In this document: one piece after another, positions 65 to 8,256 of the stretch
Position numbering within the stretch: position 1 is the first letter of the stretch
Layout: every line of letters begins with the position of its first letter
Source of the DNA: Haloferax massiliensis
GTDB lineage: Archaea; Halobacteriota; Halobacteria; Halobacteriales; Haloferacaceae
DNA: 64,000 nucleotides
Direction of reading: 5' to 3'
Assembly: GCF_001368915.1 (NCBI RefSeq)
Contig: NZ_CSTE01000002.1
Coordinates: forward strand, 755,250-819,249
Translations under genes and position numbers: made by a program
The notes under the pieces: generated by a model
What the model saw: the letters and a program-made list of their open reading frames with translations, nothing else
Databases searched by the model: none
What the model was told of the DNA's origin: nothing

Positions 65-1051
65 GTGAGCGACGCCGCCGACAGCGACCGCGACCCCGAG
101 TTCGCCTTCGAGCTACGGGTCTGCCGCTGGGCCGAGCGCGCGTGGCACCCCGACGGCCCGCGCCCCGCGTTCGTCGCCCGACAGCTCGGCACCCGAGAGC
201 GCCGCTGGGACACCGTCGTCGTGGAGGTCGACCCCGAGGCGTTCGCCGCCCGGCGCGCCCTCTCGACCGACGGCTTCGACTCGGACCTGTTGCGCGTCGT
301 CCGCCACGCGCCCGCCGAGTGGGCGTGGTACCGAGACGCCATCCCCGAACCCGACTTCCCGTGGCGACACGTCGTGCCGGCGGTCCATCGCGCCGCGGGG
401 CTCGGACTCGTCGAGAAGCGCCGCGGCTCGCGGAACCGCGTCGAGTACCGCCGGACCGCCCCGTACCCCGACTGGGTCGAGCGCGTCGTCGCCATCGAGA
501 ACAAGCCGGACCTCGACGCCAGCGCCGCCCGCGCGCTCGCCGACCAACTCGACCACGACGTGTCGCGGGCGCTCGCCGACGAGGTCTGGGTCGCCACCGA
601 GGTGACGGGCCGGCGGGTCGAACCCGCCCTACTGGAGGACCTGCCGGTCGAAGTCGGCATCCTCGGCGTCGACGGCGACTCGGCGGAGGTGCTGTGGCAC
701 CCGAGTTCGCTGTCGCCCGACCCGGCGGACGCCCGGCGGCGACTCGTCCTCGCCGAGCGCGCCTACGACCGCGGCTGGCGGAGCTACGTGGACACGATGC
801 GGCCCGACTGCCGGCAGTTCGAACTCGACCGGCGCGGCCGGGCGCTCGTCCCGCGGTGCGCCGCGAAAGACTGCTATCAGAGCCAGCGCGAGTGCGCCCA
901 CTCGTGTCCGTCGTTCGAGCCGGAGCCGCCGTCGTGGCGGATGAAGGGCTGGCCTATAGAGGGAGGCCCGGGGAAGGGCGTGCGCCGGATTCTGGAAGCC
1001 AGACGCGAGCGCGCCAGAGACCGGGCCGAGCGCGGCAGTGAGAACGCCTAA
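65..1051 (+). CDS. DUF5787 family protein, possible Fe-S PD-(D/E)XK nuclease
   Basis: 328 aa from a GTG start; matches a haloarchaeal family I know as DUF5787, which has no established function. What I see: a Glu in an early helix (E16) next to a lone Cys (C20), a strand with D49, an E145-N-K147 motif at the end of a hydrophobic strand, Q161 in the following helix, and a C-terminal cluster C249/C265/C270/C277/C281. One early Cys plus a C-terminal Cys cluster around a (D/E)xK core resembles the Fe-S nuclease layout of Cas4 and AddB. That reading is inference. The C-terminus is basic (residues 306-324). The next gene starts just downstream and is probably co-transcribed. Confidence 0.85.
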   Translation: MSDAADSDRDPEFAFELRVCRWAERAWHPDGPRPAFVARQLGTRERRWDTVVVEVDPEAFAARRALSTDGFDSDLLRVVRHAPAEWAWYRDAIPEPDFPWRHVVPAVHRAAGLGLVEKRRGSRNRVEYRRTAPYPDWVERVVAIENKPDLDASAARALADQLDHDVSRALADEVWVATEVTGRRVEPALLEDLPVEVGILGVDGDSAEVLWHPSSLSPDPADARRRLVLAERAYDRGWRSYVDTMRPDCRQFELDRRGRALVPRCAAKDCYQSQRECAHSCPSFEPEPPSWRMKGWPIEGGPGKGVRRILEARRERARDRAERGSENA

Positions 1052-5762: not shown

Positions 5763-6431
5763 TCACTCGACCCGCGTGCTGACCGAGAGGCCGCTTCCGA
5801 CCGGGAGGACGATGGTCTCGTACCGCGGGTCGGCCCGGACCGCGTCGAGGAACGCCGCGATGCCGCGGGTGTCGGCGTCGGCCCCGTCGAGGGCCTCTGC
5901 TTGCCCTTCGCTCCAGTCGGTGAGCGCGCCGAAGTCGACCGGGCCGCGCATGACGTTGTCGGCGACGACGACGCCGCCTTCGGCGACGCGGTCAGAGACG
6001 AGGTCGAACGCCTCGGCGTAGCGGTGCTTCTGGTGGTCCAAGAGCACGAGGTCGAACTCGCCGTCGACGCCCTCGAACAGGTCGAGCGCGTCGCCTTCGA
6101 GGAAGGTCGTCCGGTCGGCGAGGCCGGCGCGGTCGAGGAAGTCCCGCGCCATGTCGAGTTCGTGGGCGTCGTGTTCCGTCAGGTAGAGTTCGGCGTCGTC
6201 GGCCATGCCCTCGGCGAACCACGTCGCGGAGTAGCCGAAGCCGGAGCCGAACTCGAACAGCCGCGTCGCGTCCGCGAGGTGCGCGAGGACGCGGAGGACG
6301 CCGCCCGCCTCGGGACCGATGATGGGAAAGCCGTGCTCGTCGGCGTAGGCGGCCATCTCGGCCTGTACCGCGTCGTGTTCGGGCGCGGTCGCCGCGAGGA
6401 ACCGCCGCGTCTCGTCGCTCAAGATGTCCAT
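5763..6431 (-). CDS. O-methyltransferase (Methyltransf_3 type)
   Basis: 222 aa. The SAM-binding motif [19 protein letters not shown] (about 56-74) and the metal-site strand [17 protein letters not shown] are those of caffeoyl-CoA/catechol O-methyltransferase-like enzymes (COG4122). In that group the Asp of LLD helps bind a divalent metal. [14 protein letters not shown] is the downstream metal-ligand strand. The substrate is unknown. The ATG at 6431 was preferred; the longer upstream reading frame lacks recognisable sequence and overlaps the promoter of the divergent mutase gene. Confidence 0.88.
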
Positions 6432-6548
6432 GCGGAAGCAGGGCGCGCGAGGGACATAAAATCGGTCGCCGCGGCCGGGTTTTCGGGTGCTGTCGCGGAC
6501 GGTTCTGCGGCCCGCGGTCGGCGACGGCGTACCCACCGACCCGCGTAC

Positions 6549-6556
6549 GCTTAAGT
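6549..6556 (+). promoter_or_regulatory. TATA-like box for methylmalonyl-CoA mutase gene
   Basis: GCTTAAGT is centred about 28 bp before the ATG at 6580, with a purine-rich region around it. Same element and spacing as before tfs. Confidence 0.6.
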
Positions 6557-6579
6557 AGAGACGAACCACATCTTCGACC

Positions 6580-8256
6580 ATGTTTGATCCCGACGAGCTC
6601 GAAGAGATTCGGGAGGCGAAAGCCGAGTGGGAGGAGGAGACGCTGGGGCCGACCCTCGACCGCTTCGGGGAGCGCAAAGAGGAGTTCACGACGGACACGG
6701 GCGGCAACGTCGTCGAGCGGCTCTACACCCCCGACGACGCCGACGTGGACTACGACGAGGACGTGGGCTTCCCGGGCGAGAAGCCCTACACGCGCGGGGT
6801 GTATCCGACGATGCACCGCGGGCGGCTCTGGACGATGCGGCAGTACGCGGGCTTCGGGACGGCCGCCGAGACGAACGAGCGGTTCCGCTACCTCATCGAC
6901 AACGGCTCGTCGGGGCTGTCGCTCGCGTTCGACCTGCCGACGCAGATGGGCTACGACTCCGACGCGATGATGGCCGCCGGCGAGGTCGGGAAGTCGGGCG
7001 TCGCCATCGACAGCCTCCACGACATGGAGACGGTGTTCGACGGCATCGACCTCGGGGAGGTCTCCACGTCGATGACCATCAACGCCCCGGCGGCCGTGTT
7101 GCTGGCGATGTACGTCGCGCTCGGCGACAAGCAGGGCGTCCCCCGCGAGGAGCTTCGCGGCACCATCCAGAACGACATCATGAAGGAGTACATCGCGCGG
7201 AACCTCTACATCTTCCCGCCGGAGCCGTCGATGCGGCTCATCACGGACATCTTCGAGTTCTGCGCGGCGGAGACGCCGAAGTTCAACACCATCTCCATCT
7301 CCGGCTACCACATCCGCGAGGCCGGGTCGACCGCCGCCCAAGAGGTCGCGTTCACCCTCGGCAACGGCATCCAGTACGTCGAGGCCGCGGTCGACGCCGG
7401 CCTCGACGTGGACGACTTCGCCCCCCAGTTGTCCTTCTTCTTCAACGCCCACAACAACATCCTCGAAGAGGTGGCGAAGTTCCGCGCCGCCCGGCGGATG
7501 TGGGCGAAAATCATGGAAGAGCGCTTCGGCGCGGAGAACCCGAAGTCGATGCAGTTGAAGTTCCACACCCAGACCGGCGGCTCGACGCTCACCGCCCAGC
7601 AGGTCGAGAACAACGTCGTCCGGGTGGCATATCAGGCGCTGGCGGCCGTCCTCGGGGGCACGCAGTCGCTCCACACCAACGGGAAGGACGAGGCGCTGTC
7701 GCTGCCGACCGAGAAGTCGGTCCGGACGGCGCTCCGCACCCAGCAGATTCTCGCCCACGAGTCGGGCGCGGCGGACACCATCGACCCGCTGGCTGGCAGT
7801 TACTACGTCGAGGCGCTGACCGACGACATCGAAGACGAGGCGTTCGACCTGCTCGACGAGGTGGACGACCGCGGCGGGATGCTCGACGCCGTCAAGAACC
7901 AGTGGGTCCAGCGGGAGATTCAGGACGTGGCCTACGAGCGCCAGCGCGAGATTGAGGAGGGCGAGCGCGTCATCGTCGGCGTCAACGAGTACCAGGTGGA
8001 CGAGGAGCCGACCGTCGAGGTCCAAGAGGTCTCCGAGGAAGAAGAACAAAAGCAGGTCGAGTCGCTCGACGCCCGGAAGGACGACCGCGACGAGGAGGCC
8101 GTCGAGGCCGCCCTGGCGGACATCCGCGCCGCCGCGAACGGCGACGAGAACCTCCTCCCGCTCATCGTCACGGCGGTCAAGGCGTACGCGACCGTCGGCG
8201 AGATATGCGGCGTCCTCCGCGAGGAGTTCGGCGAGTACGAACCCGGTATGGCCTGA
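6580..8256 (+). CDS. mcmA1: Methylmalonyl-CoA mutase, large (catalytic) subunit
   Basis: 558 aa. This is the TIM-barrel catalytic chain only; the cobalamin-binding domain (DxHxxG motif) is absent and must be a separate small subunit elsewhere, as in other archaea. Family landmarks: [19 protein letters not shown] (about 77-95), the [18 protein letters not shown] segment and the [17 protein letters not shown] stretch with the active-site Tyr/His region. The C-terminal 60 residues are acidic. The enzyme interconverts (R)-methylmalonyl-CoA and succinyl-CoA in propionate and branched-chain amino acid breakdown. The epimerase for the same pathway is 1.5 kb downstream, after an unrelated short block. 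Confidence 0.95.

Follow-up and report, generated by a model that had tools for sequence, protein, structure and literature searches.

The gene at the left end of the window (the 64 000-nucleotide stretch of the Haloferax massiliensis genome analysed here) encodes a protein, DUF5787, that is probably a PD-(D/E)XK DNA nuclease belonging to the core genome of haloarchaea, with a winged helix-turn-helix (wHTH) domain inserted in its fold, a four-cysteine domain near its C-terminus, two paralogous forms and a role in repair or recombination. The gene pair occurs in almost every haloarchaeon, has a fully conserved nuclease active site and is without an assigned function; DUF5787 is not named in the literature searched. 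Since HerA-NurA is absent from H. volcanii (PMC7776575), an unrecognised core nuclease pair would constitute a testable gap in archaeal DNA repair, and DUF5787 may be an overlooked DNA-repair nuclease of haloarchaea rather than a Cas4-type iron-sulfur enzyme.

Identification and organization of the gene

The ORF at 65..1051 on the + strand has a GTG start and encodes 328 aa. It belongs to Pfam family PF19100 (DUF5787), which it matches with an E-value of 8.3e-97 and a score of 324.6 bits against a curated cut-off of 25; the match begins at residue 37, and the conserved helix that carries E16 and C20 lies outside the Pfam model. A search of NCBIfam gave no match and one of PHROGs only weak matches at chance level, while searches of the PDB sequences with both the single protein and a profile returned nothing relevant and no sequence-level similarity to characterised nucleases. 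The residues on which the initial annotation had built its case (E16, C20, D49, E145-N146-K147, Q161 and C249, C265, C270, C277 and C281) are all at the positions claimed. The features of the gene are as follows.

65..1051, + strand: DUF5787 paralogue A, 328 aa (PF19100, 8.3e-97; 71-member alignment, 55-98 % identity)
98..142, + strand: predicted helix alpha1, residues 12-26, with motif-I E16 (110-112) and C20 (122-124); E12 and E16 invariant, C20 replaced by S or A in 8 intact members
167..229, + strand: predicted strands beta1-beta2, residues 35-55, RQxGxxxRxxD, with putative catalytic D49 (209-211); R39, Q40, G42, R46 and D49 invariant
233..463, + strand: predicted inserted wHTH domain, residues 57-133, H-H-H-H-E-E in the model, with ArsR-type wHTH matches
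464..505, + strand: predicted strand beta3, residues 134-147, YPxW...ENK, with putative catalytic E145/K147 at 497-505; E145 invariant, K147 in all but one
518..568, + strand: helix alpha2, residues 152-168, QhxxD, with Q161 (545-547) and D165, both invariant
581..697, + strand: predicted strands beta4-beta6, residues 173-211, DExWxAT...LPxxxG; P194 and G198 invariant
722..772, + strand: helix 220-236 joining the core to the Cys domain (model and alignment); R226 and E231-R232 conserved
800..919, + strand: four-Cys domain, C249 (809-811), C265 (857-859), C277 (893-895) and C281 (905-907); Cys invariant in ~207 sequences

Predicted fold

An AlphaFold2 model built on 71 orthologues (pLDDT 84, pTM 0.85) places the elements in the order helix 12-26, strand 35-42, strand 47-55, insert 57-133, strand 138-146, helix 152-168 and strand 173-179, followed by two further strands, a long helix and a Cys region with a beta-hairpin. 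Setting the insert apart, this is the alpha-beta-beta-beta-alpha-beta core of the PD-(D/E)XK nucleases, and the secondary structure foreseen from the letters agrees with it: helix 12-26 carries E16 and C20, strand 47-55 carries D49, strand 138-146 ends with E145, and Q161 belongs to helix 152-168. When the model was compared with the PDB by Foldseek the best match was 3dnx (E 1.3e-4, probability 1.00, TM-score 0.63 by target length), which we take to be a member of the MmcB-like family PF06319. Among viral models the matches were to phage proteins of the MmcB family or named 'DNA repair protein', with probabilities of 0.98-1.00. The predicted fold, these structure matches and the invariance of the putative catalytic residues together support the reading of DUF5787 as a PD-(D/E)XK nuclease that had been proposed from the sequence.

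The segment between D49 and E145 contains a 77-residue insert (57-133) with the predicted topology H-H-H-H-E-E of a wHTH domain. ArsR-type regulators such as SqrR (6o8n) match this part of the model with a probability of up to 0.96 (Foldseek, PDB), and in a Pfam search with 71 members some gave weak matches to PaaX and GntR. This predicted domain is an addition to the initial annotation, which had not noticed it, and the combination of a wHTH inside a PD-(D/E)XK fold with a four-Cys domain is absent among the top structure matches.

Residue conservation

Conservation was assessed by aligning 133 sequences of paralogue A with 76 of paralogue B, the broken B copy of the present genome being left out of the count of identical columns. 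Twenty-six columns are identical across the ~207 sequences; they include E12, E16, R39, Q40, G42, R46, D49, E145, Q161 and D165, and also P194, G198, E231, R232, G237, R239, C249, C265, C277 and C281. As putative catalytic and Cys residues are among these columns, the pattern is not one that would arise by chance. The D and (D/E)xK of the nuclease signature correspond to D49, E145 and K147, of which K147 is missing once, being Asn in one B member. Four of the five C-terminal cysteines are constant, C270 being Cys in only about a quarter of the A sequences and rarely in B. C20 is kept in ~96 % of members and gives way to Ser or Ala in eight intact ones. Two of these eight are A sequences that share 80 % identity; the other six are B sequences and form four identity groups. 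This corresponds to losses in at least five separate lineages, and all four C-terminal cysteines were retained every time.

The C-terminal cysteine domain

The four invariant cysteines have the spacing C-x15-C-x11-C-x3-C, and a beta-hairpin (252-265) lies between C249 and C265 in models of both the full-length protein and the separate domain. Modelled alone (pLDDT 71) the domain gave no significant fold match, with faint matches to the zinc-binding ribosomal protein bL36 that are far from significance. The four cysteines can make a complete metal site without C20, and the metal is most likely zinc. An arrangement in which these four residues alone hold an Fe-S cluster in a PD-(D/E)XK nuclease seems unlikely: four invariant cysteines would suffice for it, but the C-beta-hairpin-C...CxxxC arrangement looks more like a zinc ribbon, and the bL36 matches, faint as they are, are to a zinc protein. 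Sequence cannot separate the two metals, because the same Cys staple holds Fe-S in Cas4 and AddB and zinc in DUF3799 (PMC3466216).

Distribution and the two paralogues

Of the 392 genomes searched within the order, 383 carry DUF5787, among them 343 of the 345 of good quality, usually in two copies. Outside the order (393 genomes of the phylum) the family is absent, the one weak match there being a methionyl-tRNA synthetase frame. This distribution indicates a core, vertically inherited gene. Apparent matches in G228 and G003, outside the haloarchaea, were recognised by eye as methionyl-tRNA synthetase frames, and a match in G134 is weak and unrelated. The nine genomes of the order without DUF5787 fall in three families (G134, G396, G403, G410, G417, G393, G401, G409 and G414), and two of them are more than 90 % complete; these nine may branch before the family arose.

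The copies are of two types, A, to which the gene in the window belongs, and B, which is located in the same genome at C1:381.7-382.3 kb. Identity between the paralogues is highest in the two nuclease segments (44 and 54 %) and falls to 30 % in the four-Cys region and 23 % in the winged helix. Such conservation of the putative cutting core, together with divergence of the parts expected to contact DNA, suggests two targets or partners.

In the B copy of the present genome the reading frame is broken by a tandem duplication of 32 bp (L149:5710-5773; G000:C1, ~382.4 kb). The seven nearest Haloferax genomes (89-91 % identical) are without it, their matches extending over 869 rather than 901 bases, and it represents either a real mutation or an assembly error.

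Genomic neighbourhood

In 66 of 80 A loci a NUDIX hydrolase gene lies upstream on the same strand, and in 50 of 80 a convergent gene of DUF5797 lies downstream. DUF5797 (1695-2195 of the window, minus strand) is another haloarchaeal family without an assigned function. A run of N separates the NUDIX gene from DUF5787 just left of window position 1 (L176, ~5900-7250); the distance between the two genes is ~200 bases in L042, another Haloferax. In many genomes B is situated between a gene for an MBL-fold protein and that for eIF2-gamma, on opposite strands, with PIN-domain and RNA polymerase subunit genes also nearby. The survey of neighbourhoods, including the 80 A loci, revealed no conserved repair or methylase/restriction partner near A or B. 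We note that genes resembling those for family X DNA polymerase and Mut7-C, named by eye, are found downstream of A in 8 of the 80 loci, including L110:7702-9916.

A search with PADLOC yielded no family match beyond one weak one, and a scan of viral contigs found no relatives of DUF5787. The near-universal distribution, the lack of a restriction partner, the single weak PADLOC match and the lack of viral relatives point to a house-keeping function rather than to defence.

Possible function

In the mechanism that we favour, DUF5787 would be a metal-dependent DNA nuclease of the PD-(D/E)XK type, encoded in the core genome of haloarchaea, whose active site would be formed by E16, D49, E145 and K147 together with Q161. 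The wHTH domain, which interrupts the fold after motif II and before motif III, would bring DNA to the cleft, and the C-terminal domain, for which a structural Zn(Cys)4 site is most likely, would clamp the C-terminus and may touch DNA. A and B would have a common cutting core and different wHTH domains, and so would probably differ in the DNA structures on which they act, or in their partners, in house-keeping repair or recombination. The latter is the most likely role of this putative nuclease, although neither the neighbours of A (NUDIX, DUF5797) nor those of B (MBL-fold, eIF2-gamma) point to repair. A more specific proposal, that A and B are a haloarchaeal invention standing in for an end-processing or branched-DNA nuclease that is missing, such as HerA-NurA, with one core directed to two DNA targets by diverged wHTH domains, is decidedly unlikely.

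The substrate could also be RNA. A universal core nuclease with a zinc-like domain and a wHTH that binds structured RNA might serve in RNA processing, as the core distribution and the proximity of B to eIF2-gamma, PIN-domain and RNA polymerase subunit genes would allow; B and these neighbours are on opposite strands, however, and hence do not form an operon, and DNA is mostly the substrate cut by PD-(D/E)XK families, and we regard this role as unlikely.

Comparison with known nucleases

A restriction or defence nuclease after the manner of DpnI, with a wHTH that recognises a base mark and a PD-(D/E)XK domain that cuts, is very unlikely. R.DpnI consists of a nuclease domain and a C-terminal wHTH (PMC4117772), and the likeness is one of domain content; PaqCI is also among the structure matches of DUF5787, with a weak score. 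In DUF5787, however, the predicted wHTH lies inside the nuclease fold, and rather than being patchy the family is near-universal in haloarchaea, with two copies per genome, besides having the PADLOC and viral results and the want of an adjoining methylase described above.

With Cas4, AddB and RecB-like proteins (PF01930) DUF5787 has in common the PD-(D/E)XK catalytic residues and conserved cysteines after the core, and the initial annotation had inferred from this a [4Fe-4S] staple of one Cys before and three after the core. The differences are considerable. In SSO0001 (C32, H62, D99, E113) and Pcal_0546 (C64, H94, D123, E136) the staple Cys precedes the motif-I His by 30 residues (PMC4176176), and in the Cas4 set collected here by ~27, whereas C20 of DUF5787 follows the motif-I E16 by four residues in the same helix; the N-terminal Cys is thus neither equivalent nor, as its losses demonstrate, indispensable. 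The C-terminal cysteines of the Cas4 set are three (C162-x2-C165-x5-C171, or CxxCx5C), as against four with a different spacing, and the conserved Tyr that follows the Q of Cas4 (QhxxY) has as its counterpart D165 in Q161-h-x-x-D165. A further difference is the wHTH insert, 77 residues long, that separates motifs II and III in DUF5787. No Cas4 is found among the best 50 structure matches of DUF5787 (Foldseek, PDB), and comparison with the Cas4 profile by hhalign was not significant, resembling that with six control families. The position and dispensability of C20, the four cysteines and their spacing therefore leave the Cas4/AddB staple unsupported. That C20 and three of the C-terminal cysteines hold such a cluster is very unlikely, even with a PD-(D/E)XK core that has Cys at both ends and a C20 so widely kept; of the proposal for an uncharacterised haloarchaeal Fe-S nuclease, the nuclease fold stands and the Cas4/AddB type of Fe-S centre does not.

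The closest resemblance in structure is to the MmcB-like family (PF06319), in which MmcB itself is described as a PD-(D/E)XK endonuclease giving Caulobacter protection against mitomycin C (PMC9578287). The phage MmcB models cited above are predicted to have the same fold. At the profile level the families stay apart: PF06319 has no match above its cut-off in eight haloarchaeal genomes, MmcB is not among the Pfam matches of 71 DUF5787 members at E<=1, hhalign of DUF5787 against phage MmcB scored no better than against six unrelated control families, and the phage MmcB profile gave no match in the PDB and did not recover 3dnx. The MmcB proteins examined here are also shorter (173-201 aa) and have neither the wHTH insert nor the four-Cys domain. 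Nevertheless, the motif order of D, ExK and then PxxxG is common to both families, PxxxG being invariant in DUF5787 and likewise, after the corresponding strand, in the phage MmcB-like proteins, and in the hhalign alignment, for all its non-significant score, the putative catalytic D, ExK and PxxxG are in register, a coincidence that is no more than suggestive of a link between DUF5787 and MmcB.
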